From: Maribacter ulvicola
Lineage (GTDB): Bacteria; Bacteroidota; Bacteroidia; Flavobacteriales; Flavobacteriaceae
Length of the DNA: 64,000 nt
Direction of reading: 5' to 3'
NCBI RefSeq assembly: GCF_900155985.1
Contig: NZ_FTMA01000001.1
Location: forward strand, 992,001-1,056,000
In this document: positions 5,937 through 60,313 of the stretch, in pieces
Layout: every line of letters starts with the position of its first letter
How positions within the stretch are numbered: the first letter of the stretch is position 1
The notes under the pieces: model-generated
The model's input: the letters and a program-made list of their open reading frames with translations, nothing else
What the model was told of the DNA's origin: nothing
Database searches by the model: none
Translations under genes and position numbers: made by a program

Positions 5937-7272
5937 ATGCTTTCAGATTCACTATCTTCTATTGCCAAATTATTATTACCTGAAGTTCTTGCGACTTATT
6001 TTGATTTGACCAAACATGAAGTCAAAGACGAAGAAATACACTTTTATTTCACGGAACTAAACGATATTTCCAAGGAGTCGACCGGAGTCAAACTTCATTC
6101 CAAAGGTTTCTTTCCGGAAGCTACCGTTCAGGACTTCCCGATACGCGGCAAGAATGTATTTCTTCATATAACACGGCGTAGATGGCTTGATGAATCTACA
6201 GATAATATGATTACAAGAGATTGGCAACTAGTAGCGAAAGGAACTAGGATTACTAGTGAGTTCGCTTCTTTTTTAAAAGAGATCCGTTAGCAACAACGCT
6301 TCCAGTACGTCGGTCGTAGCGAAATTCTATGGTGTAAACCCTAGAAGTCTACAACGACAATACAAAAATCACTTAAGCAATTTCGGCTCCTGGAGCCAAA
6401 GATCACACGCAAAACAATGGACGTTGTTCCCGAACAATATAGGAAGCCATCTATCTCTGGACGAAACTGCTTTTTCCAATGGCGATCTATACACCGTTCT
6501 AACCAATAAAAAAGAAAAAGGAAAGAAAGGAGTTATCATTACCATGATCAAAGGAACCAAGGTGGAAGCTGTTATAGCAATACTACATAAGATTCCTTTA
6601 AAACAACGAAAGAAGTTCAAGGAGGTTACCTTGGACATGGCGGGCAATATAGGACTAATCGTTAAAAAATCATTCCCGAACGCCACACTGGCCGTAGACA
6701 GGCTCCATGTTCAAAAAACTGGCCCTGGATGCATTGCAGGAAATTAGAATTAAACATAGATGGGAAGTACTGGATACCGACAAATGACGCTATAGAAAAC
6801 GCTAGAGGCAAGACCTTAAAATACACACCGGTATTACTATCCAATGGAGATATATTGAAACAACTCTTAGCTAGAAGTAGATATTTATTATTTAAATCCA
6901 GTAATAAGTGGACCGAAAACCAAGCTAAAAGAGCAGAAATACTTTTTAAACGCTATCCTGACCTGAAAAAAGCATATGGATTATGCCAAAAGCCAATCCT
7001 GGATATTCAACAACACAAAAGACAAGACCTCCGCGCTGATACGCTTAGCGAAATGGGATGAAAAATTGAGATAGGGCAAGTTTAAAAGCTTCAACACTAT
7101 TGCTAGAACTATGTCCATTCACTACAAAAATATACTTAACTACTTTGACAACAGGGATACAAATACTTCGGCAGAATCATTCAATGCCAAAATAAAAGCC
7201 TTCAGAGCTCAATTCAGAGGTGTTAGAAACGTAGAGTTCTTCTTGTTTAGACTAACTAATATTTTTGCATAA
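5937..7272 (+). pseudogene. Degenerate ISAon1/ISL3-type transposase
   Basis: The first frame (ATG at 5937, stop at 6290) encodes an ~117-residue N-terminal region like the separate ORF A of ISAon1-type elements (MLSDSLSSIAKLLLPEVL). The DDE part follows in another frame, with NNASSTSVVAKFYGVNPRSL and then LSLDETAFSNGD and VTLDMAGN. Further shifts occur near 6715 (an extra A in a run of A), near 6780 (right after an in-frame TGA) and near 7060. The last part, ESFNAKIKAFRAQFRGVRN, ends at 7272. An A/B frameshift could be programmed, but the later ones inactivate the gene. Family naming is from memory of the N-terminal ORF. Confidence 0.75.
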
Positions 7273-7380
7273 TCATAAAATTCCACAACTTTATGACTTG
7301 ATTCATTATTTTTCTTTTTAGACCCAACTTTTGAGATTGATCCCTCATTTCTATGAAAAATAGAAAAGTTATAGAACTAA

Positions 7381-7409
7381 AAAAGCTCTCAATTTCTTGA
7401 GAGCTTTTT
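7381..7409 (-). terminator. Displaced original terminator of tRNA-Asp
   Basis: A perfect 12-bp stem with loop tttc: left arm 7381-7392, right arm 7397-7408. It has a T-run when read on the minus strand. It directly abuts the 23-bp tRNA-Asp fragment at 7410, exactly where the tRNA's own terminator would have been before the ICE inserted. The hairpin is seen; its origin is inferred. Confidence 0.75.
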
Positions 7410-7432
7410 GCGGTCTGGACGGGACTCGAACC
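7410..7432 (-). other. attL: 23-bp tRNA-Asp 3'-end repeat
   Basis: Identical over 23 bases to 60239-60261, the T-arm and acceptor 3' half of tRNA-Asp. Identity stops at 7433 (t versus c), where ICE-specific sequence begins. This is the copy displaced by integration and marks the chromosome junction on the side distant from the integrase. Confidence 0.9.
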
Positions 7433-7643
7433 TTGCTTGGCGAGCCCTGTCGCTGTGGCACTTCTGCCAAATATTTTTATCTATGTTGACGATTTGTGAA
7501 CTAATTCTCGTGAGTTGTAGTTCAATTTGATTCGTCTGATGCAAAAATAATAATTCTTTTCAATTAACAACATTTATTACCAATAAATATTAAACTAATA
7601 TATTACCAATGAATTGAAAATAAAAATTTAACTAAGGGGGTTT
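7433..7643. other. ICE left end, non-coding, with integrase-arm-like repeat
   Basis: No gene is visible. An 18-bp direct repeat, tatgttgacgatttgtga, lies at 7482-7499 and again at 60116-60133 near the other end, 50 and 123 bp from the respective att cores. Such matching subterminal sites are what arm-binding sites of a tyrosine integrase look like. The rest is AT-rich. Confidence 0.55.
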
Positions 7644-7668
7644 ATTATCATACAATATGACCGCAATT

Positions 7669-7801
7669 TAAACTCGTAAAATACTTCCATCAAAAGACTA
7701 CGGCATAAAGCCAACGTCTCTTCCATCGCTTATTTATTCCGTTTCCTTTTGAGCCAAGATTTTATCTTCCGTTTGGTTTCTGCTCAAATATTGTTTAATC
7801 T
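7669..7801 (+). repeat. Structured leader repeat, copy A (upstream of parB-like gene)
   Basis: First of three ~133-bp near-identical leaders (others at 9732-9864 and 12915-13045), each ending just before a different gene's start. Common blocks are taaactcgtaaaatac, catcaaaagactacggcata and ttatttattccgtttccttt. Visible pairing includes ggc-ataaa-gcc and a long-range tttgagc/gctcaaa stem. Similarity to copy C extends upstream to about 7644. No protein frame runs through it. It could be a 5'UTR regulator, a promoter, or an ssDNA promoter of the leading region. Confidence 0.8.
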
Positions 7802-7815
7802 AAAATTTGAGTATT

Positions 7816-9612
7816 ATGACAACAAAAGCGAGTACCACAAGAAAGAGCGGTAAAAAAATTACCACCGCCAAGAAAGAAGTCAAAGAAAAATTGACACAAA
7901 AAGCGATTGGGCTTCAGATTGAGAACCTATCAACTGCAAAGGTCATTCCCGACCCGATGCAACCCAGAAAGACTTTTAATGAAGCACATCTGCAACAGCT
8001 TTCCGAAAGCGTCAAAAAGCACGGTGTTCTACAGCCTATTACAGTCCGAAAATCTGGAAACGAATTTATCATCGTGATGGGCGAACGTAGGTATCGAGCA
8101 AGTAAGATGGCCGACAAGAAAACTATTCCGTGTATTGTCAGGGAATATAAGAACAACGATGTTCTTGAAATTCAAATCATCGAAAATCTGCAAAGGCAGG
8201 ATGTTGAACCTACCGAAGAAGCTGAGGCGATTGCTTACTTAAGCGAAAAATATGCGCCTACAGAAATTGCAAAGCGATTGGGAAGAACAGATAACTTTAT
8301 CAGACAACGATTAAAGCTGGCTGGTTTAATTGAAGGTTTTAAGCATTTTGTTCGTAATGGCGAAATGACGATTTCGTTAGGTGTGGGTGTTGCACTTTTT
8401 GAACCAGAAGAACAGCAGATGATGTTGGAAACGATGGGCGAAGATTTTAGTGCCCATCAGGTGAACAGGATGATTAAAGACCAGACCTATGATTTGGAAA
8501 AAGCATCTTTTGATGTAAATGATAAGAAATTGGTGCCAAAAGTAGGCTCTTGTATTGAATGTCCGTTTAACGCGGCAAATCAAGGTAATCTTTTCGGCGA
8601 TGGCAAAATGGTTTGTACAAAATCAGCTTGTTATGAAACGAAGAAAAGCAAGTCGTTCTTGAATTTGATTGAAAAATCGAAACAAGAGAACATACTGTTA
8701 ATTCCTGAAATACGACAGTATTGGGCAGACGAGGAAAACAATCAGCTGATTATTTCACAATTGGAAAAGAACGGTTTGAAAGTCTATTTGCTGGATGATG
8801 TTGAAATCATAGAAAATCCGATAAAGCCAACAATTGAGGACATCAAGAAAGAATACCAACATTACGATTATTCCGAAGATGAATTTAAAGCTGAGCTGGA
8901 TGAAGCCTTACAGCAATACGAAGAAGAATTGGAAAAATACAATTCCGCTAAAGAAAATGAATTTGTAAAAGGTATTGTGTTCCATCCTGAAACATACAGA
9001 CACAAAGAAGTCTTTATAAAGATTGTTGAACAGTCCAAAAATGAATCGACATCGTATTCAGCACCTTTGGAAAACAGAAAAATGGCAGATTGTTCCCCTG
9101 AAGAACAGATAATTAAAATCAACGAAAGGGAAATACGCAAGAAGCAAATAGAGAACAACAAGCAGTTTGAAGAAGTTGTTGAAATGATTAGAGACACCAA
9201 ATACATTGATACGAAGAAAACACTTTCGGTGGATGAAATGGTAGCATTCTCATTGACGTTGTATGAAAACAATGTAGATTATGTTGGACGACAAAGATTC
9301 TTTTCAAATTTATTGGGCAATACATCCAAGATGACAGATGAAGAAATTGTTGAGAGTTTCAAAAAGAAGTTTAAAAAGGAAATCTTTCATAAGTTGATAC
9401 GGTATATACTAACGAAGCAAGTGCATTTTGGCGAAAGCAATCACGTTAATAATCTGACTAACATTTCATTCTACAATGCGATGCAAGGTTATTACAAGTC
9501 CAAGATTGACGGCATCGAAAAAGAATATGCCGAAAAAAGAAACAAGCGTGAAGAACGTTTGAAAGAGCGAATAACAGTTCTTGAAAAGCAAATTCAAGGA
9601 TTGAAAGAGTAG
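7816..9612 (+). CDS. ParB/Spo0J-family DNA-binding protein of the ICE leading region
   Basis: A 598-residue protein from the ATG at 7816; a TTG nine bases earlier is in frame but less likely. The ParB N-terminal nucleotide-binding domain spans ~35-135, with GERRYR (89-94) and ENLQR (123-127), followed by a helix-turn-helix near 140-175. A cluster of cysteines at ~243-275 (CIECP, CTKSAC) may bind zinc. The C-terminal half is charged and coiled-coil-like, far longer than chromosomal ParB. No ParA partner is seen in the window, so a pure partition role is doubtful. ParB-domain proteins are typical of conjugative leading regions. Preceded by leader copy A and followed by a strong terminator. Confidence 0.85.
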   Translation: MTTKASTTRKSGKKITTAKKEVKEKLTQKAIGLQIENLSTAKVIPDPMQPRKTFNEAHLQQLSESVKKHGVLQPITVRKSGNEFIIVMGERRYRASKMADKKTIPCIVREYKNNDVLEIQIIENLQRQDVEPTEEAEAIAYLSEKYAPTEIAKRLGRTDNFIRQRLKLAGLIEGFKHFVRNGEMTISLGVGVALFEPEEQQMMLETMGEDFSAHQVNRMIKDQTYDLEKASFDVNDKKLVPKVGSCIECPFNAANQGNLFGDGKMVCTKSACYETKKSKSFLNLIEKSKQENILLIPEIRQYWADEENNQLIISQLEKNGLKVYLLDDVEIIENPIKPTIEDIKKEYQHYDYSEDEFKAELDEALQQYEEELEKYNSAKENEFVKGIVFHPETYRHKEVFIKIVEQSKNESTSYSAPLENRKMADCSPEEQIIKINEREIRKKQIENNKQFEEVVEMIRDTKYIDTKKTLSVDEMVAFSLTLYENNVDYVGRQRFFSNLLGNTSKMTDEEIVESFKKKFKKEIFHKLIRYILTKQVHFGESNHVNNLTNISFYNAMQGYYKSKIDGIEKEYAEKRNKREERLKERITVLEKQIQGLKE

Positions 9613-9625
9613 CTTTTGTTGTTTG

Positions 9626-9665
9626 AAGAAGGATTGGCATTCGTGCTGGTCCTTCTTTTTTTTTT
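9626..9665 (+). terminator. Rho-independent terminator of the parB-like gene
   Basis: The stem aagaagga / tccttctt (9626-9633 and 9650-9657) is followed by a long run of T, starting 14 bases past the stop codon. Confidence 0.8.
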
Positions 9666-9731
9666 ATAATAGACACTTGGTTAAAATGGTCAAGGAATAG
9701 AGAGAATAATCAATCAATAGTAACGCAAAGG

Positions 9732-9864
9732 TAAACTCGTAAAATACACCCATCAAAAGACTACGGCATAAAGCCACCGCTTCTTCCCTTACTTATTTAT
9801 TCCGTTTCCTTTTGAGCTGAGATTTTAGCTTCCGTTTGGGTTAAGCTCAAATATTGTTTAATCT
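9732..9864 (+). repeat. Structured leader repeat, copy B (upstream of DUF932 gene)
   Basis: Second copy of the leader seen at 7669 and 12915. The outer stem here is tttgagct/agctcaaa, one pair longer than in copy A because both sides changed together, which supports a paired structure. It ends 13 bases before the ATG of the DUF932 gene. Confidence 0.8.
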
Positions 9865-9877
9865 AAATTCAAAAGCT

Positions 9878-10714
9878 ATGTATTTACAAAATTTGCAACA
9901 GGATGAAATCTTTGTTTCATCAGAAATGAAATCCTTAAAAACTCTGACACAGATAGAATCCCGACGAGGGCTTGAAAATGCCATCATTTCAAATGGTAAA
10001 ATCGTCAATGTGGTATCTAACAGTTATGGACACATTCCAAACCAATTGTTCTTCAAGAAAGCTGAAGAAATGCTGACAGATGCACAACTGAACTTTCACA
10101 AGCGCACCATCAACAAAAATGATAGGTCGTTCATTACCGACTTTATCATAGACGATATAAGTCAGTTTACCGTCAAGAACGATAAGGACGTGATACTGCC
10201 AATGCTACGGTTCAAAAACTCGTATGACGGTAGTGAAAAGACTTCTGGACACTTCGGATTTTATAGAGAAGTATGTTCCAATGGTTTGCACGTTTCACAA
10301 GCCGAAATTGAGTTTTCCATCAAGCATAGTAAGAACAATACACACCTTATTATGCCAAGACTAAACAACCTGTTCGACAAGTTTCTGGACAATGAATTCT
10401 ATACGATAACCAAGAAATTCGACAAGATGAAAGAATTTAAAATCATCGATACACAGGAATTTGTAAAAGCCATTCTTGATAAAACGAAACTCTTTAGATA
10501 TGAATGCAGCGACAAGAACAGCGACCCTTCGAAAAAATCTCGTGAAGTCCTGGAAATCCTGAATTATGAAGCATTGTTGCTAAACGAGGAACCTAATTTG
10601 TGGTTAGGTTACAATGCCTTCAATGCAGTTTTACACAACACGCTGAAGAAAAGCTTTGGCCAACAAGAAAGATTGGACAAGAAATTGTTTGATGAAATTT
10701 ATGAAATGGCCTAA
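9878..10714 (+). CDS. DUF932 family protein (phage/plasmid-like)
   Basis: A 278-residue soluble protein from the ATG at 9878; an in-frame TTG at 9854 lies inside the leader repeat and is rejected. It resembles the DUF932 / phage-plasmid-like TIGR03299 group, with the central segment GFYREVCSNGLHVSQAEIEF (residues ~130-150) close to the family's typical 'N-G-L-x' core. The biochemical role is unknown. Such genes are common next to ssb and ParB-like genes on conjugative elements, as here. Likely controlled by leader copy B. Confidence 0.8.
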   Translation: MYLQNLQQDEIFVSSEMKSLKTLTQIESRRGLENAIISNGKIVNVVSNSYGHIPNQLFFKKAEEMLTDAQLNFHKRTINKNDRSFITDFIIDDISQFTVKNDKDVILPMLRFKNSYDGSEKTSGHFGFYREVCSNGLHVSQAEIEFSIKHSKNNTHLIMPRLNNLFDKFLDNEFYTITKKFDKMKEFKIIDTQEFVKAILDKTKLFRYECSDKNSDPSKKSREVLEILNYEALLLNEEPNLWLGYNAFNAVLHNTLKKSFGQQERLDKKLFDEIYEMA

Positions 10715-11083
10715 AGCCAAAAGGTTCATCCAGTACCTTAAACTGGATTTTTTTGTGCTTGCTACTTATGTTTAAAAGCAATACCGTTCAGCACATTCCC
10801 CTACATTTCGCGAAAAGCTTCATTCCGGAAAAAGCGCTTCCCTATAATAATCTTGGACACAATCCCTAATTTTAGCTTTCCATAGTGTTAACCCTTCCCG
10901 TCACGAAACTTCGAGACTGCTAAATAACATTTCAGTTCCTATTCAAATACGTAAATTAATCAGTAATGTTCAAATAGAAATTTTTATAAGAATTAATTAA
11001 TCCTATCTAATAATACGAATAACATTATATTTATTGACCACAAAAATGAGTTGTGCGTCATTTAACAAAATATCAATTATTCA
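10715..11083. other. Intergenic region with D-repeat and promoter of the AraC gene
   Basis: No gene. It contains the first D-repeat (10787-10900), then an AT-rich stretch (10940-11083) that presumably holds the promoter of the AraC-type regulator. The sharp drop in GC marks the AraC/VOC pair as a possible insertion. Confidence 0.5.
10787..10900. repeat. D-repeat, copy 1
   Basis: Matches 12706-12875 and 13315-13498. Shared blocks include ttcagcacattcccctacat, cttggacacaatccc and ttttagctttcca, followed by gttaacccttcccg. This copy stops after the cttcccg block and lacks the final ~70 bases of the other two. Confidence 0.8.
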
Positions 11084-11899
11084 ATGAACTATCAAACATT
11101 CCAACCACATCCGGATTTAGAATCTCTTGTCAGTTGCTATTGGACTTTAGAAGTTCCTGCTGAACCTGATGTACAAAAACAACGAATCATTCCTGATGGC
11201 ACAATTGAAATGGCGTTTATACTTGGAGACGACATTAAACGATACACTTCGAAAGATGAATTTATACTACAACCTCGTGCAATGGTTCTCGGACAGACAA
11301 TTGAACCCTTTTATATAGAACCTACAGGATATGTGAATACTTTTGCAATTCGTTTTTACCCTTATGGTTTTGCAAATTTTGTAACAATGCCCATTAATAA
11401 CTTGGCAAACAAGGAAACGACAATAGAATTGTTGTTCGGAGAAAAAACTGCTAGTGACTTGGAGCGAAAAATAATTGAGGCAACTAATACTAGTGAACGA
11501 ATAGAAATTATTGAAAATTTTTTTTTAGACAAGTTGAATGAAAAAACTACAATTAATAATATCGTAAAAACAACAATTGATGCTCTTTTAGCAACAAATG
11601 GAAGTGCTTCGATAAGCAAAATCCTTAAAGAAGATTTATCAAAACGGAGACAACTTGAACGAAATTTCAAAAAACAAATTGGTGTTAGCCCAAAACAGTT
11701 GGGTAAAGTAATCCGACTGCAAAATGCACTAAAAATGCTTCTTAATAAAAAGTCAGAAAACCTAACCGACATTGCTTACGAAAGTGAATACTTCGACCAA
11801 GCGCATTTTATAAAAGACTTTAAAGAGTTTACCGGAATTAATCCGAAGGAATTTTTAGGCAATGAAAATATGGCACTCTCTACCCTCTTCTACAAATAG
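11084..11899 (+). CDS. AraC-family transcriptional regulator
   Basis: A 271-residue regulator. Residues ~1-150 resemble the DUF6597-type N-terminal sensor domain (start MNYQTFQPHPDLESLVSCYW). Residues ~170-260 form an AraC/HTH_18 DNA-binding domain, with a second helix-turn-helix ITYESEYFD-like segment IAYESEYFDQAHFIKDFKEF. It is transcribed toward the VOC lipoprotein gene 75 bases downstream, and may control it. Both lie between D-repeats, like a small cargo insertion. The ligand is unknown. Confidence 0.85.
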   Translation: MNYQTFQPHPDLESLVSCYWTLEVPAEPDVQKQRIIPDGTIEMAFILGDDIKRYTSKDEFILQPRAMVLGQTIEPFYIEPTGYVNTFAIRFYPYGFANFVTMPINNLANKETTIELLFGEKTASDLERKIIEATNTSERIEIIENFFLDKLNEKTTINNIVKTTIDALLATNGSASISKILKEDLSKRRQLERNFKKQIGVSPKQLGKVIRLQNALKMLLNKKSENLTDIAYESEYFDQAHFIKDFKEFTGINPKEFLGNENMALSTLFYK

Positions 11900-11974
11900 T
11901 CAGCGTGTCGCATTTTTACAATTTTTGTATTTGCACGAAATCTAAATTTGTCTTGTCAAATCAAACAGGACGAA

Positions 11975-12469
11975 ATGAAAAAATCCATTCTTTGTACAGC
12001 CATAATTCTTTCCTTTAGCATTACAGCCTGTAACAACCAAAACAAATCTAAAACCGAAACTATCCCGGTTGAATCTAATATTAATCAAAAAACAAAAGAA
12101 ATGAAAAGTCATATTTCAATCTTTGAAATTCCAGCAACGGATGTTTCAAGAGCAGTAAATTTTTATCAAGCAATTTTAGACATTAACATTGAGAAGATAG
12201 AAATGCCCGAAATGGAAATGGGGATATTCCCTTATGAAGAACAAATGGTTACAGGAGTTATCATTAAAGCAGAAGGCTATAAACCTTCATCTGATGGTGT
12301 AACTATATACTTAAATGGTGGAGATAATCTTCAAATTATTCTTGATAAAGTTGAGAAAAATGGTGGCGAAATAATTGTTCCGAAATCACTTCACGCAGAT
12401 GAAAGTGGTTATTACGGTCTATTTCTTGATTCGGAAGGAAATAAAATCGGTCTGCATTCACCGAACTAA
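11975..12469 (+). CDS. VOC-family (glyoxalase-like) lipoprotein
   Basis: A 164-residue protein from the ATG at 11975, chosen because it gives a clean lipoprotein signal peptide (MKKSILCTAIILSFSITACN). The mature part is one VOC/glyoxalase-fold domain: HISIFEIPATDVSRAVNFYQ at its start and GGEIIVPKSLH, then GYYGLFLDSEGNKIGLHS at its end. VOC proteins include lyases, dioxygenases and antibiotic-binding proteins. Membrane anchoring is unusual. It probably forms a pair with the AraC gene upstream. Confidence 0.8.
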   Translation: MKKSILCTAIILSFSITACNNQNKSKTETIPVESNINQKTKEMKSHISIFEIPATDVSRAVNFYQAILDINIEKIEMPEMEMGIFPYEEQMVTGVIIKAEGYKPSSDGVTIYLNGGDNLQIILDKVEKNGGEIIVPKSLHADESGYYGLFLDSEGNKIGLHSPN

Positions 12470-12705
12470 ACGAGTGAAAAAGAACAAACACAGAGCAATG
12501 TATATAAAAAAGAGGGCAAATAGTCCTTAAATAAAAGCTTTGGAGTATTTGCAAAGTAGCCATATTTTTAATTTGTATTTTGACGATAAGAAAGTTAAAA
12601 AGGAAATTAAAAATATGGCTTCGTGCTTTACCAAAGATTAAGTGCTTAATCAAGCAACAAATACACCCCATTCACTTTAAGATAGATATCAGTTTTAATA
12701 ACCCA

Positions 12706-12875
12706 CTCAGCACATTTCCCTACATTTCGCGGAATGCTACATTCCAAGAAAAGAGCTTCACTACGCAAGTCTTGGACACAATCCCCAATTTTAGCTTTCC
12801 ATTTCGTTAACCCTTCCCGCTATGCTGGGAAGGAACACTTCATTCCCTAGCCAAAATAGTGAATCAAGTCCGCTT
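12706..12875. repeat. D-repeat, copy 2
   Basis: About 170 bp, aligned with copies 1 and 3. Local hairpins ggaatg-ctac-attcc and cttccc-gctatgct-gggaag sit where copy 3 has different but equally paired bases. It ends in ...gaatcaagtccgctt, as in copy 3. Confidence 0.8.
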
Positions 12876-12914
12876 AAAAAAGGAAATCAATTATCATACA
12901 ATATACACGCAAGG

Positions 12915-13045
12915 TAAACTCGTAAAATACTTCCATCAAAAGACTACGGCATAAAGCCATAGCTTCTTCCCTCGCTTATTTATTCCGTTTCCTTTTGAGC
13001 CAAGAATTTTAGCTTCCGTTTGGTTTCTGCTCAATATTGTTTAAC
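12915..13045 (+). repeat. Structured leader repeat, copy C (upstream of 64-aa gene)
   Basis: Third copy of the leader, very close to copy A (ccatcaaaagactacggcat, then gagccaag...tttggtttctgctca). It ends 17 bases before the ATG of the 64-residue gene. Confidence 0.8.
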
Positions 13046-13062
13046 CCAAAAATTTTAACATT

Positions 13063-13257
13063 ATGAAAAGTACAGCTTTAAAATCCAACATTTCATTAAA
13101 AGAAGCCGAAGAACATTACCAATTAAGTAGTGAAAATTATACTATTGAAAGTGCAGAGTGTCATTTAGCTTACTACAGAGAGAAGCATCCCCTTTACTAC
13201 CAAATACTTTTAAATAATGTTTATTCTAAAAATCAAAAAGTACTTTTTGAAGAGTGA
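13063..13257 (+). CDS. Small hypothetical protein of the leading region (64 aa)
   Basis: A 64-residue acidic, helical-looking protein beginning MKSTALKSNISLKEAEEHYQ, with no signal peptide or membrane segment. No family recognised. That it is real is supported by the ATG placed at the same distance behind the conserved leader as in the parB-like and DUF932 genes. It may be an early-expressed establishment or anti-host factor, but no motif shows this. Confidence 0.65.
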   Translation: MKSTALKSNISLKEAEEHYQLSSENYTIESAECHLAYYREKHPLYYQILLNNVYSKNQKVLFEE

Positions 13258-14006
13258 GCTAACTATTCACAAAAGTACTATTACCCTTTTATTTAATGCG
13301 AGTTTCATAAGCCATTCAGCACATTCCCCTGCATTTCCCGAAAAGCTACATTTCGGGAAAAGAGCTTCACTACAAATATCTTGGACACAATCCCCAATTT
13401 TAGCTTTCCATTCCGTTAACCCTTCCCGTCCCGATAGCTATCGGGACTAGTAAGGAACACTTCATTCCTTTGCCAAAATTGTGAATCAAGTCCGCTTTTC
13501 ATCGGAAAGTCATCACTTCGGTTTTTTTAACAGGATTTTCGGCGCGGTCTTCTTGAGCCCTTACTCGAAAATCCTTAAAAACCGAACCGCTGCCTTACAC
13601 ATTTTAAGGGGTTTATAATGGATAAAGCCTTTATTGTTTTTCGGTACAGCGAAAAACAGGCACGACATAACCAATTCTAATTTAACCACAGCTGCTTATC
13701 TCGCTTAACTGTCGGTACGCTCAAACGCAACTGCGTTTAAAAGAATTGCTAATGCCCTTATGGAACTTGTAAAGACTATACAAGTTTTAGTGAAAAATAA
13801 GGTTTCTACTTCCTTGAAAATGCGAGCATTTTACTACGTCGCAAACACACCTGATTTATTCCCTAAAAGTCTTGACAAAACCCACTCTATCCATTGTGCG
13901 GCGCACAGAAGAAAAGAACAAACACCCCTTAAAATTTAATTCAGTTTAAATCAAATAAGGGAAATATAAACCAGTCTGTAACAAAGCAGACACAAATCTT
14001 TTTATT
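13258..14006. other. Hairpin-rich 750-bp non-coding region upstream of ssb
   Basis: Contains D-repeat 3 and then at least five strong inverted repeats without any gene: 13519-13584 (outer cggttttt/aaaaaccg, inner aggattttcg/cgaaaatcct), 13627-13661 (tgtttttcg/cgaaaaaca), 13723-13738 (aaacgca/tgcgttt), 13817-13832 (aaaatgc/gcatttt) and 13895-13907 (tgtgc/gcaca). The density of stems is far above the rest of the window. It ends about 100 bases before ssb. Confidence 0.7.
13315..13498. repeat. D-repeat, copy 3
   Basis: About 185 bp, the longest copy. It carries the extra perfect palindrome gtcccgatagctatcgggac (20 bp), where copy 2 has a shorter unrelated stem, and cccgaaa/tttcggg near its start. 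It lies between the 64-aa gene and the ssb hairpin region. Confidence 0.8.
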
Positions 14007-14351
14007 ATGAGTACTATTAAAAATCACGTACAGTTAATCGGAAACGTTGGACAAGAGCCAACCATTACGAACCTTGAAAGCGGAAAGAAAGTAGCCCGTT
14101 TTTCATTAGCAACAAATGAGTATTACAAGGACAAAGAAGGCAACAAGCAAACGGACACGAATTGGCATACCGTAGTAGCTTGGGGCAAAACTGCCGAAAT
14201 TGTAGAGAAGTATGTTGTTAAAGGCAAAGAAGTTGGAATATCGGGAAAACTTAAAACCCGAAGTTATACAAATGATGATAACGAACAACGCTATGTTACG
14301 GAAGTTGTAGCCGATGAAATTCTTTTACTTGGAAGCAAAGACGACAAGTAA
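14007..14351 (+). CDS. ssb: Single-stranded DNA-binding protein
   Basis: A 114-residue single OB-fold SSB. It starts MSTIKNHVQLIGNVGQEPTI and contains KVARFSLATNE and the WHTVVAWGKTAEIV segment typical of the family. It lacks the long acidic tail of chromosomal SSBs and ends ...LLLGSKDDK, so it may not recruit the usual C-tail partners. It probably coats the incoming transferred strand. It follows the hairpin-rich region and is ended by a clear terminator. Confidence 0.93.
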   Translation: MSTIKNHVQLIGNVGQEPTITNLESGKKVARFSLATNEYYKDKEGNKQTDTNWHTVVAWGKTAEIVEKYVVKGKEVGISGKLKTRSYTNDDNEQRYVTEVVADEILLLGSKDDK

Positions 14352-14363
14352 ATCTTAAAATAA

Positions 14364-14399
14364 AGAGGGCGTTCCCGTGAGAAGTTGCGCCCTCTTTTT
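14364..14399 (+). terminator. Rho-independent terminator of ssb
   Basis: Stem agagggcg / cgccctct (14364-14371 and 14388-14395) followed by a T-run, 12 bases after the ssb stop. Confidence 0.85.
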
Positions 14400-14429
14400 C
14401 ATTATTCACTAATTTAAAAAAGCAAAACA

Positions 14430-14810
14430 ATGAAAGCACAAGTTAACGAAATCAAAGAAGGATTGCAACATTTTCACGGAACGGAAATGTTCTATCAAAT
14501 CCCATTATTAAGAACACGTTTTACGGACGGACTAAAATATCTTGCTAATGCGGCAGATTGTTTTTGGCTCATTACGGACACTTCCGTAATTGCAAAAAGT
14601 CTGATGAACCGAAGCGAATTTATAACCATAGACTTCAAAAGATTGCCCGAAGATAAACAGGATTTTACAGGCTATGAAGCAGAGATAATTTACAGCGATG
14701 GCAACGACAATATTTTGGAAAAACACGGATATCGGGCAACCGATTTTCCGCTCGATGAACTGCGTTTATTTTTTGTAAATGATACGCTGATGTTACCAAG
14801 CGAATATTAA
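14430..14810 (+). CDS. DUF6876-like hypothetical protein
   Basis: A 126-residue soluble protein starting MKAQVNEIKEGLQHFHGTEM, with LLRTRFTDGLKYLANAADCF near residue 30. It resembles the DUF6876 proteins found on Bacteroidota mobile elements; that assignment is from memory. No catalytic motif. It is followed 12 bases later by a 65-residue gene, with which it probably shares a transcript. Confidence 0.65.
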   Translation: MKAQVNEIKEGLQHFHGTEMFYQIPLLRTRFTDGLKYLANAADCFWLITDTSVIAKSLMNRSEFITIDFKRLPEDKQDFTGYEAEIIYSDGNDNILEKHGYRATDFPLDELRLFFVNDTLMLPSEY

Positions 14811-14822
14811 AATTTTGAAGCT

Positions 14823-15020
14823 ATGATTTACATAAAATTTCAAGATTTGAGCGAGGAAAAACAAGAGGAACTTTTACAGGTTTCGAGAGAACACGTAACA
14901 CATCTTTATGGGGATTCCATAAAAAAATATGTGGAAGAAACTGGTGCAGATTATGAAAACTTGATTGACGAAGAAATGATTAAAAACTTATACACTTATA
15001 ATTTTATTTTCAATATGTAG
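14823..15020 (+). CDS. Small acidic hypothetical protein (65 aa)
   Basis: A 65-residue protein starting MIYIKFQDLSEEKQEELLQV. It is rich in Glu, has no Cys or membrane segment, and no family is recognised. It is the last gene of the DUF6876-like operon, directly followed by a terminator. Confidence 0.6.
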   Translation: MIYIKFQDLSEEKQEELLQVSREHVTHLYGDSIKKYVEETGADYENLIDEEMIKNLYTYNFIFNM

Positions 15021-15041
15021 CACCATTAAAATAGAGCATCG

Positions 15042-15070
15042 AACACCTCTAAAATTTTAGAGGTGTTTTT
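15042..15070 (+). terminator. Rho-independent terminator after the 65-aa gene
   Basis: Perfect inverted repeat aacacctctaaaa / ttttagaggtgtt, followed by T residues. Confidence 0.85.
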
Positions 15071-15302
15071 GTCTGCAATTAATATCAAGTCAAAAAAAAG
15101 CGTATCTTTATATCGCTGAAATTCAGCATTCAAATTAAAGTAGGGTTATCCACTTTTCGACTTTCGCCGATAATCTTACACATCGAAAAATAACATATCG
15201 GAAAATCATTTTCCCTGAAAATGGCAATTGGCTTTTTAGCCAGATTGTATGGATTTTTGTCCCGCGAGCGGGACGAAAAGATTTCCATGTTAAAATCTAG
15301 AA
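15071..15302. other. Hairpin-containing non-coding stretch left of the IS110 element
   Basis: No gene. Inverted repeats: ctgaa/ttcag (15118-15129), ggaaaatcattttcc near 15200, tggc-tttttta-gcca near 15230, and the 16-bp palindrome gtcccgcgagcgggac at 15259-15274, just outside the IS. It probably formed one continuous region with 16.5-16.77 kb before the IS entered. Confidence 0.5.
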
Positions 15303-15317
15303 AAAATGCAAAAATTT

Positions 15318-16313
15318 TTAGGCTACATTTTTGACATAGGGTTGCTGTCTTTTAATGACGGCACAGATCCTATGGACAAGTTTGTTCCTAACGTTATTGA
15401 TGATAAGCATTTTATTTTTTCCCTCTTCGACTTTCCTTTCAAAGTAAGCTTTGATTTCGGGATCGTGGTTGATTGCAGCCATGGCACCCATATGGAGATG
15501 TTTTTTGAGTGTTCTGTTTGCCATCGGATGGATTCTGGATTTTCGATTGATAGAAGATCCAGAGGTATATTCAAATGGTACGACACCACAATAACAAGCC
15601 AATTGTTTTGGATTATCATATTTGGTGAAGAAGCTAGTAAAAACGGTAAGATGAAGTGCCGTGATCTGTCCTATTCCAGTAACAGAAGTAACCAGTCCGA
15701 TCGTTTTATTGAGCCTGTCATCAGAAAGGATCAATTTTTTGATATCCCCTTCTATTCGCTCAATCTCGCCAGTAAGATTTTTATTGATTTTTTTAAGGTT
15801 CTTTTTGGCAAGCTTTCCCATTTCTGGAGAGAAGAGTTCAAGTTCATTGGGATACTTATTAAAATCGGCTCTGGCATTGACCAGTTGTCTTCTGATCTTG
15901 AGCAGTATTCTCACTTTTTCAAGGATTTCTGGAATCGGCTCATAGAGTTTGAGCTGGCCAACGTTTTTAGAGGCGTATTGCGCAATACGGACGGCATCGA
16001 CCCTATCATTTTTACCTCTGTGAAGTCCTATGCTCTTCGTGATCTTGATGGGCATCTCTACGCAGAAGCTCGCTTCTTTTTCAACAAGTTTGGCAATGAT
16101 GAGTTTTCCATAGACACCGGTATGTTCCATACAGGTGAGTGTGTCTTTCAATGGAATCTTTTGATTTTTCAAGAGCCTGATAAAAGCATTCGTTCCTTTT
16201 TTGGAATTCTCAAAAAAATAAGAGGTAGTCCTATCTTCATTCAAGATAGCTACGTCAAAAGTACTCTTCGATATATCAATACCGATGAAGTACGCAAAGT
16301 TCTGGTTTTGCAT
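15318..16313 (-). CDS. IS110-family DEDD transposase/recombinase
   Basis: A 331-residue recombinase. The N-terminal RuvC-like DEDD domain has GIDISKSTFDVAI (first Asp), CMEHTGVY (Glu) and KNDRVDAVRIAQY (Asp pair). The C-terminal Transposase_20 domain contains GIGQITALHL and VPFEYTSGSSINRKSRI, with the serine that acts as nucleophile in this family. Length is typical and no stop or shift interrupts it, so it is likely active. Members use a structured non-coding RNA from the element's end to choose the target. The 360-codon frame on the opposite strand is a shadow. Confidence 0.93.
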   Translation of the reverse strand: MQNQNFAYFIGIDISKSTFDVAILNEDRTTSYFFENSKKGTNAFIRLLKNQKIPLKDTLTCMEHTGVYGKLIIAKLVEKEASFCVEMPIKITKSIGLHRGKNDRVDAVRIAQYASKNVGQLKLYEPIPEILEKVRILLKIRRQLVNARADFNKYPNELELFSPEMGKLAKKNLKKINKNLTGEIERIEGDIKKLILSDDRLNKTIGLVTSVTGIGQITALHLTVFTSFFTKYDNPKQLACYCGVVPFEYTSGSSINRKSRIHPMANRTLKKHLHMGAMAAINHDPEIKAYFERKVEEGKNKMLIINNVRNKLVHRICAVIKRQQPYVKNVA

Positions 16314-16540
16314 AATGATAAAATTAAAGGATTAAGACCAAAATCCCAGATTGCCATCGAACCCCTGATAATAGGTCTAAAAACCTGAATTTCCATCTGA
16401 TGCCGGTCCAGAATAACCGAGAAGGGCTTTTATCAAATAATGCATAAGCCCGAAGCTTTGAATAGCGTATAATTCGCCCTTACCGGTTTTGGTCGTTATT
16501 CATAATTACTGAGGGTATTCCCCGATGAAAAGTTAGATAA
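16314..16540 (-). ncRNA. Candidate IS110 bridge-RNA region
   Basis: Non-coding DNA directly upstream of the IS110 recombinase. It contains the stem gggctt/aagccc (16424-16451) and a second G+C-rich pair region (tgccggtccagaataaccga near 16401 and gcccttaccggttttggtcg near 16476). In IS110-group elements the bridge RNA is encoded in this position. The guide loops cannot be assigned by eye. Confidence 0.5.
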
Positions 16541-16559
16541 TTAAATATAAAAATTCACC

Positions 16560-16770
16560 ACGTAAAAATCTCTATATAAACAACAATGCAAATCTAAGGG
16601 GAATAGCAAGAGGGTAACACGCTGCGCGATGTTTCGGATTCCTTTTCGTTTTCAAATAGCTGATAATCAGCGAATTGAATATATTATAATTTCCTGACAG
16701 TTAACGATTTGCGACAAACGGGCTGTTAACGCCCATTTTTAGGGATGATTTTGCGACAAATCGGCGAAAT
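16560..16770. other. Candidate oriT region upstream of the mob genes
   Basis: About 210 non-coding bases just before the relaxosome genes. A direct repeat tttgcgacaaa occurs at 16708-16718 and 16750-16760 (42 bp apart), flanking the stem gggc-tgttaac-gccc (16720-16734). Also present are gctga-taa-tcagc near 16660 and an acgctgcgcg motif near 16620. Repeats plus a hairpin beside mobA are the usual form of an oriT. The nick site cannot be placed. Confidence 0.5.
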
Positions 16771-17151
16771 ATGGACTCATTTATTGGAATTAGATTTAAA
16801 AAGGAAACTGCAAAACGTTTCCAAACGTTCTCACGTACTTACTTCAAATCGCACACCGAGGCGATGGCTACAATGCTAGATTTTTTCTTCTATAATGAAA
16901 TTTCGCCAAAAGAAAAATTAGGTCCAACGGGGCGAACCATCGAAGCTAAATTGCTCAAAAGAATCAATGCGGTTATTGCCATAATGCGAGATGTGGAAAA
17001 GACACAAACCAAACCTACGGTGGCTATGATTCAATCACTTTTTGAAACAGAAGAGCCAGAAAAAAAACCGCTGATTGTGGAAAAGAAATATGCGGAAGAA
17101 AAGAAAGAAGTGCGCTTTCGCGAAAAGCGAAACTTAAAGAACGAACTCTAA
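16771..17151 (+). CDS. BfmA/BtgA-family mobilisation accessory protein (MobA)
   Basis: A 126-residue basic protein starting MDSFIGIRFKKETAKRFQTF, with a ribbon-helix-helix-like first half and a Lys/Glu-rich tail. It resembles the BfmA/BtgA relaxosome proteins of Bacteroidota, which bind oriT and help the relaxase. It sits 10 bases upstream of the relaxase gene. Its last codons lie inside a short palindromic repeat (17111-17138) also found in the traN gene. Confidence 0.75.
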   Translation: MDSFIGIRFKKETAKRFQTFSRTYFKSHTEAMATMLDFFFYNEISPKEKLGPTGRTIEAKLLKRINAVIAIMRDVEKTQTKPTVAMIQSLFETEEPEKKPLIVEKKYAEEKKEVRFREKRNLKNEL

Positions 17152-17161
17152 TTTTTGAACT

Positions 17162-18193
17162 ATGTATATCACAATCACACCACAGAAATTAGGAACAAAT
17201 TACTCACAAAGTTCAGCCGATTTTGTAGGCTATTTAGAGAAAGAAAATGAAGGGATAAAGGAAGCAGATATGGAACATTTTTTCAATCAATATGGCGACG
17301 AGATTTCCGCAGAAGAAGTGGTAAAGGAAATTGATGGAAACACCGCAAAATTGAAAAAGAAAGAACCTAAATTTTATTCCATAACGGTCAGTCCTTCCAA
17401 GTATGAATTGAACAGATTACAGAACAGTCGTGAAGATTTAAAAACCTACACTCGTGAGCTAATGAAAGATTATGTTGCCAGCTTCAATCGGGAAATCAAT
17501 GGACGACCTATATCAATAGACGACATAAAATATTACGCTAAAATTGAACATCAAAGAACCTTCAAGGGTACGGACTTTCAGATAAAAGAAAACCAACCTT
17601 TCGCCACAAAAATACTTCAGCTCAAAACGGATATCCGAAATATTCAAGAAGGACGAGCTGAAGGGAATATTAAGAAAATGGAAAAGGAAATTGCCAAACT
17701 GGAACGCCAAGCGCCACATCAACAAAACGGAAAACGGATAGTTCAGGGAATGCCGAAAGCAGGAAACCAAAGTCACATTCATATTATCGTTAGCCGAAAG
17801 GATGCTTCAAATTCTATAAGCCTTTCCCCAGGAAGTAAGCACAAAGCATCCGAAGTAGAGATGCACGGAAAAAAAGTGAAGCGTGGTTTTGATAGAGATA
17901 CATTTTTCGCGAAAGCGGAAAAAACATTTGATAAGACATTTGGATATAAGCGCAATTACGCAGAGACCTACAAAGCTAAAAAGACCTTTGTAAAGAACCC
18001 AAACCTATATTTTTCAGCATTGATGAAATTGCCAGCCAATGAAAAAGCATTGGCTTTTAAAATGATAAGTAAATCAGGATTGCCCATAGTGCCGAGTATT
18101 CCAGTAAGTCAGGCACAAATAGCGCTTCGAGTTTTTAAGCGATTGAGACGTGGCGCAGAAGTGGCCATCAAATCAAGTTCCATCGGAATCTAA
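17162..18193 (+). CDS. Relaxase-type mobilisation protein (MobB, DUF5712-like)
   Basis: A 343-residue protein. It opens MYITITPQKLGTNYSQSSAD and contains the His motif NQSHIHIIVSRKD at ~residues 200-212, like the metal-binding HxH motif of HUH relaxases. A tyrosine-rich C-terminal part follows (FGYKRNYAETY). It matches the DUF5712 mobilisation family by eye. It should nick at oriT and stay bound to the 5' end. It is flanked by the accessory protein and the coupling ATPase in a tight operon (10 and 5 bases apart). Confidence 0.75.
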   Translation: MYITITPQKLGTNYSQSSADFVGYLEKENEGIKEADMEHFFNQYGDEISAEEVVKEIDGNTAKLKKKEPKFYSITVSPSKYELNRLQNSREDLKTYTRELMKDYVASFNREINGRPISIDDIKYYAKIEHQRTFKGTDFQIKENQPFATKILQLKTDIRNIQEGRAEGNIKKMEKEIAKLERQAPHQQNGKRIVQGMPKAGNQSHIHIIVSRKDASNSISLSPGSKHKASEVEMHGKKVKRGFDRDTFFAKAEKTFDKTFGYKRNYAETYKAKKTFVKNPNLYFSALMKLPANEKALAFKMISKSGLPIVPSIPVSQAQIALRVFKRLRRGAEVAIKSSSIGI

Positions 18194-18198
18194 TAGAT

Positions 18199-19779
18199 AT
18201 GCAGATAGACAATCTTATAACGATACTTTCAATTATTGGTTTGGCCAGTACCGTTTTCTATGGAATGTTTCGAGTATCAAAATATGCGTTTGTGTTGAAT
18301 AGCATATCGCTTTCAGTTCTCGTGTTCTATTTGTCTGAAGGAAATGAATTGATATTTATATTACTTTATTTGGTTTGTCCGCTAATGCTAATTAATATAG
18401 GACTGTATGTTTTTCTACATAAAACCGAAAGCCCGAAAAATGGCGACAGCAGATACCAAGTAAACTTTGCAACTACTAAAGGAAATTTCAGATTGGATAA
18501 TATCAAACGTGGTGCATCCATCATTGGTTCTGCCGGAAGTGGTAAAACCGAAAGCGTGGTTTATGGATTTCTAAAGCATTTTGAAAAAGAAGGTTTCTGC
18601 GGAATTATTCACGATTATAAAGATTTTGAATTGACCGAAATGGCATATCCGCTTTTCAAGGATAGCGACATCCCTTTTAAGGTCATTTCCTTCGATAAAA
18701 TCATTCATAAGGTAAATCCTATTGCGCCACGGTATTTAGAGAATGAGGAAAGCGTAAACGAGGTGTCAAGGGTGTTGATTGAGAATCTATTAGAGCAAAG
18801 AGAAAGCGGAACAACTGGCACGACAAAATTCTTCAACGATGCTGCAGAAGGGTTGATTGGTGGTTTGATTTGGAAACTGAAAACGGACTATCCCAAGTTT
18901 TGTACGTTGCCACATTTAATTGCGGTTTATCAATTTCTCGATACTAAAAGTTTGATTCAGTTTCTGGAAACCAACACCACATCACGAGCAATGGCAGATG
19001 CCTTTATAAGTGGCAAGGATTCTGAAAGGCAGACCGCTGGTGTAAAAAGCACATTGGCAAATGCGCTGAAAAGAATTAGTACACAACGGATTTTTATGGC
19101 TTTGTCCGCAGATGAAGTACCGCTAAATATAAATAGTGCTGAAAATCCCTGCGTAATTTCGATTGTGAACAACCCAAAATTCGAAACTTCGTATTCACCA
19201 GTAATCGCTACAATTATACACACTATTACAAAGCAAATGAGCGTGCGTAATTCAAAACCATCATTCTTGCTTATGGAAGAAGCACCAACCATTCGTTTAT
19301 TGAATATGCATCGAATTCCTGCAACATTGAGAAGCTATAATATTTCTACGATTTATGTGATGCAGGATAAAATTCAGAATGATATGATGTATGGCGATAA
19401 GGCAAGCAAGGCGATTCTTAGTAATCTATCCTATCAATTTTTCGGAAAGGTAAATGACCCGGACACCGCAAAATATTACGAACGCTTTTTTGAAATCATT
19501 AAAGACCCAACCAAGAGCATAAGTCGAGGACATAACCTCGATTTTGATACTCGCATTACTACGGGCGAAAAGGAAATCCCAAAGATTCGGGCGGACGTAT
19601 TTTTCAGGTTGAAACAGGGCGAGTTTATCACTTATGCAGATGGTAGGGATAAAAAGGTGCAGTTTAAATTAGCCGACATTCAAAGGGAACTTCCTAATGA
19701 GACTAAACAGTTTTCTAAAGCTGATTTGGGAGCTAATTTTGAGCGGGTTTATGAGGAAGCACGGTCTATATTTAAATAA
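18199..19779 (+). CDS. Type IV coupling protein (VirD4/TraG-like, MobC)
   Basis: A 526-residue membrane ATPase. Two or three N-terminal membrane segments (residues ~1-75) are followed by a P-loop, IIGSAGSGKTESVVYG (~110-125), and a Walker B-like LLMEEAPTI near residue 355. Later blocks (STIYVMQDKIQNDM) are typical of TraG/VirD4. It delivers the relaxase-DNA complex to the mating channel. It is the last gene of the mob operon. Confidence 0.88.
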   Translation: MQIDNLITILSIIGLASTVFYGMFRVSKYAFVLNSISLSVLVFYLSEGNELIFILLYLVCPLMLINIGLYVFLHKTESPKNGDSRYQVNFATTKGNFRLDNIKRGASIIGSAGSGKTESVVYGFLKHFEKEGFCGIIHDYKDFELTEMAYPLFKDSDIPFKVISFDKIIHKVNPIAPRYLENEESVNEVSRVLIENLLEQRESGTTGTTKFFNDAAEGLIGGLIWKLKTDYPKFCTLPHLIAVYQFLDTKSLIQFLETNTTSRAMADAFISGKDSERQTAGVKSTLANALKRISTQRIFMALSADEVPLNINSAENPCVISIVNNPKFETSYSPVIATIIHTITKQMSVRNSKPSFLLMEEAPTIRLLNMHRIPATLRSYNISTIYVMQDKIQNDMMYGDKASKAILSNLSYQFFGKVNDPDTAKYYERFFEIIKDPTKSISRGHNLDFDTRITTGEKEIPKIRADVFFRLKQGEFITYADGRDKKVQFKLADIQRELPNETKQFSKADLGANFERVYEEARSIFK

Positions 19780-60238: not shown

Positions 60239-60261
60239 GCGGTCTGGACGGGACTCGAACC
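60239..60261 (-). other. attR: 23-bp repeat within tRNA-Asp
   Basis: Second copy of the 23-base att core; covers the 3' acceptor strand and T-arm of tRNA-Asp plus one base beyond the discriminator. Confidence 0.9.
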
Positions 60262-60313
60262 CGCGACCCCCTGCGTGACAGGCAGGTATTCTAACCAACT
60301 GAACTACCAGACC
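60240..60313 (-). tRNA. tRNA-Asp (GUC)
   Basis: On the minus strand the gene begins ggtctggtagttcagttggt and has the anticodon arm cctgc-ctgtcac-gcagg with anticodon gtc. The T-arm gcggg-ttcgagt-cccgt and acceptor ccagacc plus discriminator g follow. All stems pair. CCA is not encoded. Its 3' half is the ICE integration site and has been faithfully restored by the element. Confidence 0.96.

Follow-up and report, generated by a model that had tools for sequence, protein, structure and literature searches.

The 64,000-nt stretch of the Maribacter ulvicola genome analysed here (contig NZ_FTMA01000001.1, positions 992,001 to 1,056,000; hereafter the window) hosts an integrative and conjugative element (ICE). 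The 7.6-14.0 kb interval plausibly represents the leading region of this flavobacterial ICE and carries cis-elements that would work on the transferred single strand, a reading to which we assign a probability of about 60%. The elements are a structured sequence named A and two repeats named D1 and D2. They are best read as elements that serve the early genes as single-stranded promoters, as priming sites, or as both; their sequences are unrelated to the Frpo promoters of F-like plasmids. The evidence lies in the conservation of the elements, in the bottom-strand fold of A, in placement and direction, and in a hairpin resembling those of transfer origins (oriT). The position and strand of the nick, the loading of a polymerase, early expression, and a role of D1, perhaps of D2, similar to that of A are inferred.

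Structure and distribution of element A

Element A is a non-coding structured element of ~430 nt (13507-13935), ending 71 nt before ssb, the gene encoding a single-stranded DNA-binding protein (SSB). Folded as single-stranded DNA, the bottom strand of the 13500-14010 interval reaches -78.9 kcal/mol (z -6.5), and none of 100 shuffles is as good. Sixty-five long hits to A were reduced to 36 non-redundant sequences. RNAalifold folds these at -82.6 kcal/mol on the bottom strand versus -38.7 on the top strand, and the median z of 14 of them, folded singly with DNA energies, is -7.6 versus -3.8. Four divergent sequences were omitted from the covariation alignment. The bottom-strand structure of the remaining 32 includes 135 pairs in 18 helices, with 96.4% of cells paired. 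Double-sided changes involve 47 of the 135 pairs (22.3 in shuffles) and 196 cells (52.8 in shuffles), and the covariation score is 0.200, as compared to 0.109 in shuffled and 0.039-0.054 in slid alignments. Coding controls (ssb, mobB and the coupling protein gene, from 23-24 chosen loci) range from 0 to -12, with 0-4 compensated columns on each strand; the intergenic stretch at oriT folds at -12.5 on the bottom and -8.5 on the top strand. A chance origin of the fold was rejected, because shuffles, slid alignments and coding controls are all weaker.

The choice of the strand is supported by wobble pairs. Among the 36 sequences, single changes toward a bottom-strand G.T pair are found in 43 columns, versus 17 in the opposite sense (unpaired control 71 vs 74, p 0.003). 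Two held-out sets, which may share genomes, were analysed as well; they include 16 of 19 sequences, and 34 of 72 full copies obtained from 80 of at least 118 loci, respectively. In the former, where identity to the closest training sequence is 43-90%, standard pairing is retained by 154 of 211 double changes in the 83 pairs predicted from the bottom strand only. In the latter (median identity to the nearest training sequence 91%) the figure is 228 of 262 over all 135 pairs, 213 being Watson-Crick and 15 bottom-strand wobble pairs. Wobbles in the same 34 sequences number 103 on the bottom and 28 on the top strand, and fall in 45 versus 20 columns (unpaired control 38 vs 43, p 0.008). The bias persists (19 vs 3) in the 52 pairs predicted from both strands, where any effect of having chosen a strand is removed. 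Folded alone, the 34 sequences reach -97.9 on the bottom and -44.9 on the top strand, and 125 of their own 128 pairs are in common with the training fold. Taken together, these data place the fold of A on the bottom strand.

A open reading frame (ORF) of at least 90 aa starts within 250 nt in 115 of 119 copies of A, redundant copies included, at a median distance of 49 nt. The gene is not invariably ssb. Element A precedes a RadC-like gene in one locus (L071) and an unrelated ORF in another (L070, which has two A copies), and thus appears to be a module rather than solely an ssb leader. The notion of an ssb-specific leader was rejected on the same ground. A full-length ssb hit is available for 26 loci (L062, where the hit is partial, was omitted). 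In 22 of them, with one tie, the nucleotide identity of A to its counterpart in the window exceeds that of ssb (medians 0.84 and 0.77); it exceeds that of mobB in 23 of 23 cases.

The 13290-14008 segment is matched in 87 of 249 genomes of the family at E 0.001. The number drops to 67 once matches above 1e-6 are set aside; the other 20 genomes have only such matches, many of them to the short D2 palindrome. A model of the A core, built from 25 of the 32 sequences, identifies 58 of 397 genomes of the family, and under strict filters 3 of 345 genomes of the class, all three in the family of the window. The exact A pattern occurs in at least 118 stretches of named genomes, nearly all from flavobacteria (Maribacter, Arenibacter, Aquimarina, Cellulophaga and others). 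Among the matches listed are also one from Saprospirales, one from Cytophagaceae and one from an unplaced Bacteroidetes metagenome-assembled genome (MAG). The first two (L191 and L284) are MAGs as well, and denote either a wider spread or binning errors. The exact pattern was found in no viral contig, and a plasmid collection searched with 12880-14010 gave no match. One genome carries three very divergent A copies (L147, L148 and L149), which are 43-45% identical to the closest training sequence; fragments of ssb lie beside one of the three. In five loci (L076, L077, L078, L080 and L082) A is missing, and the interval from D2 to ssb holds a different conserved stretch instead, perhaps a small ORF rich in lysine as judged by eye.

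Predicted transferred strand, direction of genes, and the D1 and D2 repeats

An invariant AGCAAGAGGG motif is located between a 65-aa ORF and mobA in all 36 loci of the first set with a mobA hit, with a hairpin on its right. The arms of the hairpin covary (GTAAC with GTTAC, GTAGC with GCTAC, GCAAT with ATTGC), and one mismatch is present in several copies, that of the window included. In well-studied oriTs, the nicked strand carries the hairpin on the 5' side of the nick. By this geometry the bottom strand is the predicted transferred strand (T-strand), running leftward, so that the region under study would enter first, as the first-pass annotation had proposed. Distances from oriT are ~2.6 kb for ssb and ~8.8 kb for the D1 copy of the ParB gene. 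Two TTTGCGACAAA repeats found before mobA vary between loci and resemble each other within a locus; they are possible MobA sites co-evolving with MobA.

All the genes recognised in the 7816-15020 interval reside on the + strand, some - strand ORFs of at least 80 aa overlapping them, and are thus directed toward the mob genes and oriT. ParB-like, DUF932 and ssb genes are among them (Table 1), and both observations agree with what had been noted earlier. The same elements, order and direction recur in related flavobacterial ICEs. The order runs from D1 and the ParB gene to D1 and the DUF932 gene, D2, A and ssb, a DUF6876 or RadC-like gene, the 65-aa ORF, oriT, mobA, mobB and the coupling protein gene, single members being absent from some loci. 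The RadC-like assignment of the gene in the DUF6876 position of several relatives is an assumption of ours. Relative to mobA, 143 element hits could be placed in 62 loci, 47 of which have both mobA and mobB, and all of them are on the ssb side. The direction is that of mobA for 36 of 36 D1, 64 of 64 D2 and 40 of 43 A hits (140 of 143 in total), and the three exceptional A hits are short antisense matches (69, 69 and 113 positions) within palindromic A copies. Since loci were chosen by a match to A or D2, the presence of the elements there is no evidence, and their direction is.

D1 is a 136-nt imperfect hairpin present in three copies, the other two being 90% and 82% identical, without gaps, to the first; a conserved flank with an outer inverted repeat starts ~30 nt upstream of copy 1. 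In all the 69 copies retaining the 3' end, redundant ones included, an ORF of at least 45 aa starts no more than 120 nt downstream, at a median distance of 13 nt (10-90% range 11-15). Removal of near-identical sequences left 23 of 40 D1 and 62 of 108 D2 rows; D1 models were made from 21 of the 23. Double changes that separate two D1 subtypes leave the hairpin intact (5 columns), and the outer inverted repeat is present. A D1 covariance model matched 8 of 196 genomes of the order, two of them weakly (E 1e-4 and 9e-4) in another family.

D2 spans ~130-210 nt, and its three copies lie between genes. Two are 78% and 87% identical to the second, and a further 62-nt D2 tail is found at 12825-12886 and 13447-13508 (84% identical). 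In the 62 loci, 69 of 72 D2 hits have none of the query genes within 200 nt downstream; ParB and DUF932 query proteins started at upstream TTG codons. The six repeats of two types and the hairpin cluster (A) that had been described as standing in front of the genes are all in place, and only D1 and the cluster directly precede genes. A 12-pair stem can be drawn on the bottom strand of D2, with wobble cells 54 vs 4 in pairs having a Watson-Crick majority (pooled pairs, p 0.016). Away from both ICE leading regions found in this genome, a D2-like stretch (82% over ~75 nt, C5:1135557) was also detected. D1 and D2 are assigned to the same mechanism as A because of their position.

According to the scenario favored here, transfer would start at oriT on the bottom strand, 5' end first, and proceed leftward. 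The complements of the 65-aa ORF and of the DUF6876 and ssb genes would enter first. Element A would emerge next, and take its multi-branched fold on the entering strand. RNA polymerase of the recipient, or primase, might load on A and copy the strand back toward oriT, and SSB and its neighbours would be made before synthesis of the complementary strand. The D1 elements may act likewise, each in turn upon entry, for the 64-aa ORF, then for the DUF932 and finally for the ParB gene.

Comparison with known systems and alternative explanations

In the F plasmid the expression of leading genes is early and transient, and depends on the stem-loop promoters Frpo1 and Frpo2, as reported in passages of PMC9849209. 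In passages of PMC11541004, 13,089 Frpo-homologous promoters are counted in 6,006 conjugative elements; the word "bacteroid" is absent from the main text of this article, and likewise from that of PMC12826799. In searches of the open-access literature, no description of single-stranded promoters in Bacteroidota turned up among the papers listed.

The elements share several traits with the Frpo or ssi sequences of F-like and IncI plasmids. Element A, non-coding and several hundred nt long, stands upstream of ssb and of further genes of the leading region; a leading region holds more than one element; and genes are directed toward oriT. The leading region of F, taken as control, also holds ssb, ParB and DUF932 genes oriented toward oriT. 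In both systems the fold is more stable on the T-strand, which for A is assigned from oriT geometry. Fourteen Frpo sequences were fetched; one is a reversed duplicate of a palindromic copy, and the fold and wobble control makes use of 13. Frpo2 reaches -89.1 (z -5.9) on the T-strand versus -81.6 (z -4.5) on the other strand. The 13 copies reach -137.8 on the T-strand versus -121.4, with 15 versus 3 wobble columns in T-strand pairs (p 0.013). The fold signature of A is of the same kind, and stronger.

There are differences as well. A, D1 and D2 have no sequence similarity to Frpo. When the 14 sequences were compared to 7001-17500 of the window, blastn (word 7) found only 12-20 nt matches (E at least 0.14), and nhmmer none. 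A is multi-branched, whereas Frpo2 is one long hairpin; three element types are found here, and one there; no -35/-10 or -33/-7 consensus was found in the window elements; and the host is a flavobacterial ICE with a MobB relaxase. The elements initially proposed as single-stranded promoters are unrelated in sequence to Frpo, as had been supposed. A conserved flavobacterial promoter could be found neither in A nor in D1.

The latter point comes from promoter scans. The -7 box of flavobacteria is given as TAnnTTTG in passages of PMC9723704. No conserved match to the promoter was found in A, D1 or D2, the best in D1 being TTC with TCCGTTTG (mean 6.4 of 9). Nor was a conserved ordinary promoter found before ssb or upstream of D1. 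Eight sigma-70-like sites were found in the 12850-14430 interval (3.6 expected), none of them within A or between A and ssb. The scans make an ordinary ssb promoter less likely, and likewise an RNA gene on the bottom strand. In leftward orientation TTG-N17-23-TAnnTTTG is matched perfectly at 7570 and at 9756, both outside A; the latter site falls within D1 copy 2.

Several results weigh against the notion that the elements work on the transferred strand. With up to one mismatch, the TTG-N17-23-TAnnTTTG consensus is found toward the gene in none of 36 A regions (4.4 in mononucleotide shuffles) and in 5 of 23 D1 regions (6.3 in shuffles), which leaves the proposed single-strand promoter unexplained. 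The position and strand of the nick are a prediction from oriT geometry. All counts treat related sequences as independent. When the pairs of both strands are pooled, training-set wobbles in A are 45 vs 23, with a p of only 0.026, and the corresponding Frpo columns are 16 vs 7 (p 0.09), making this a weak control. The 18 pairs predicted from the top strand only lean the other way in the two held-out sets (16 vs 4 in the 16 sequences, 13 vs 5 in the 34), as is to be expected given the way in which those pairs were selected; one compensated column was found in them in the 34 sequences. With pairs chosen without wobbles, bottom versus top counts for A are 31 vs 9 in the bottom fold and 16 vs 10 in the top fold; they are 3 vs 3 for D1, and no pairs are left for D2. 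D1 wobbles (8 vs 3) are not significant for the choice of the strand, and for D2 DNA energies yield no consensus structure, whichever strand is folded, and there is little stable structure overall. Folded singly (23 D1 sequences, 24 of the 62 of D2), neither repeat shows a strand preference relative to shuffles. The bottom z is lower in 12 of 23 D1 and 11 of 24 D2 sequences with DNA energies, and in 4 of 23 and 9 of 24 with RNA energies. Folding of the repeats as single-stranded DNA, which the first-pass annotation had called for, thus gave for A a bottom-strand structure with which held-out sequences agree, yielded too few wobbles in D1 for either strand to be preferred, and gave a weak bottom-strand signal for D2.

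The main alternative, which we regard as unlikely, is that A is the gene of a structured non-coding RNA transcribed leftward from the bottom strand, its place before ssb serving antisense or transfer control. A bottom-strand, multi-branched and wobble-tolerant fold is indeed typical of RNA. Small RNAs occur in mobilization modules, as the one of SGI1, reportedly needed for mobilization (PMC9299015), and A shares with it the nature of a non-coding element beside a mobilization module. A bottom-strand terminator-like site (12963-12943) is moreover present in D1 copy 3, ~540 nt farther left than A. Yet no such site was found at the left end of A itself, although other kinds of 3' end are possible, and a leftward promoter on its right (up to one mismatch) was found in 5 of 36 copies only, fewer than in shuffles (15.5), a count that refers to one consensus, other sigma factors being possible. 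Further arguments against an RNA gene are the tight distance of A to a + strand gene, mostly ssb and once RadC-like, and the lack of Rfam matches at E up to 1 inside 13489-13939, two weak ones falling outside the elements. Position, and the failure to find a bottom-strand promoter, favor DNA for A, in contrast to the RNA of SGI1.

It is less probable still that the elements are only initiation sites of the ssi or sso type, which prime the complementary strand on incoming DNA and have no part in gene expression. The same strand and place would be expected, and Frpo itself reportedly serves both transcription and primer synthesis, as told by the title of a 1997 Cell paper. Priming does not require, however, as many gene-tied elements as are found here, nor that each D1 (69 of 69) lie so close to a start codon. 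Least probable among the explanations considered is that D1 and D2 work as regulatory repeats of the ordinary double-stranded kind, or as hairpins of + strand leader RNAs, spread by copying from gene to gene so as to co-regulate them, D2 being mainly a mark of cargo insertion. The lack of a clear strand preference in single-sequence folding fits such a view, as do the different cargo genes flanked by D2 across loci and a sigma-70-like site (12874-12902) overlapping the conserved flank of D1 copy 3. The compensated D1 stems would be needless for plain DNA sites, a leader RNA needs a promoter upstream of D1, where no conserved one was found, and A is clearly a bottom-strand element.

The hypothesis of single-stranded promoters and/or priming sites may be extended. 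It is tempting, though at less than even odds, to think that several families of functional elements made of single-stranded DNA, one a multi-branched fold of ~430 nt and one a hairpin of ~135 nt, arose in flavobacterial ICEs with no link to Frpo, and that they recruit the RNA polymerase of Bacteroidota without the usual -33/-7 boxes. Single-stranded promoters have been shown so far in E. coli-type plasmids. If the hypothesis is correct, expression from the incoming strand would be a strategy of general use with more than one origin, here working in ICEs rather than plasmids, in a phylum where promoters are read differently. The genes first made in the new host would form a testable list (ParB-like, DUF932, SSB, DUF6876, RadC-like and small ORFs), and the leading region could be searched for anti-defence genes of Bacteroidota. 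Element A, with structural selection acting strongly on a large DNA fold and compensatory changes at dozens of pairs, would be among the most elaborate natural folded DNAs known.

The ICE, its relatives and cargo genes

The ICE spans positions 7410-60261 of the window, and is bounded by 23-bp repeats of the tRNA-Asp 3' end. A tyrosine integrase gene adjoins tRNA-Asp. TraM, TraG-type and DUF4138 genes, the latter presumably corresponding to TraN, are present along with RteC. The element is thus a CTnDOT-like ICE, as denoted by MobA, MobB and the coupling protein, TraG and TraM, RteC, the tyrosine integrase and the att repeats. Att repeats, transfer genes and the geometry of the oriT-like block sustain the earlier view of an ICE with its predicted leading region here. 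CTnDOT and CTn341 of Bacteroides share with it a BfmA/BtgA-type MobA, the MobB relaxase, the coupling protein, TraG, TraM, DUF4138 and RteC; they differ in that the A core, searched under strict filters in 345 genomes of the class, was found solely in the family of the window. We know of no leading-region function in CTnDOT.

Table 1. Features of the ICE and its leading region (window coordinates)
Feature	Position	Strand	Remarks
ICE left end, 23-bp copy of tRNA-Asp 3' end	7410-7432	+	identical to 60239-60261
D1 copy 1	7669-7804	- (by analogy with A)	imperfect hairpin, directly before parB
ParB-family protein	7816-9612	+	ParB_N, HTH_ParB
D1 copy 2	9732-9867	- (by analogy)	directly before DUF932 gene
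DUF932 protein	9878-10714	+	
D2 copy 1	10775-10947	- (by analogy)	shorter than the others; repeat match 10775-10900
Putative cargo between D2 copies	11084-12469	+	AraC-type regulator, glyoxalase-like protein
D2 copy 2	12694-12892	-	repeat match 12694-12819
D1 copy 3	12915-13050	-	before 64-aa ORF
64-aa ORF	13063-13257	+	preceded by D1 copy 3
D2 copy 3	13303-13514	-	abuts element A; repeat match 13303-13428
Element A, terminal hairpin	13507-13596	-	helices 16-18
Element A, multi-branched fold	13601-13935	-	closed by helix 1 (13924-13935 with 13601-13612)
SSB	14007-14351	+	single-stranded DNA-binding protein
DUF6876 protein	14430-14810	+	
Conserved 65-aa ORF	14823-15020	+	
oriT-like core	16605-16635	-	invariant AGCAAGAGGG and covarying hairpin, 36/36 loci
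Two TTTGCGACAAA repeats, 11 bp each	16708-16718, 16750-16760		before mobA; change together across loci
mobA, mobB, coupling protein	16771-19779	+	BfmA/BtgA family; relaxase
tRNA-Asp gene	60239-60313		right boundary of the ICE

The AraC-type regulator and glyoxalase-like genes look like cargo, different genes being found there in other loci. Varied cargo resides beside D2 elements in the interval from the DUF932 gene to A in L044, L053 and L049, which we take to be an efflux-like set, a block of 7 kb in the opposite orientation and a helicase-like gene. D2 may mark a spot of cargo insertion.

A second, related ICE is found in the same genome (L006). It carries a separate set of D1, D2 and A elements along with ssb and mob genes, and shares with the window ICE long blocks that are 75-85% identical. 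An ICE 99.99-100% identical over 14.5 kb was found in a MAG labelled as another genus (L165, 1425-16001). The match begins at 7409, hence at the same ICE end as in the window, and the near-identity suggests either recent transfer or mis-binning. The window copy carries an insertion sequence at 15281-16599, presumably IS110-like, with a 331-aa ORF on the - strand, on the leading side and ~6 bp from the oriT-like core. The near-identical ICE lacks this insertion, which may impair transfer of the window copy.

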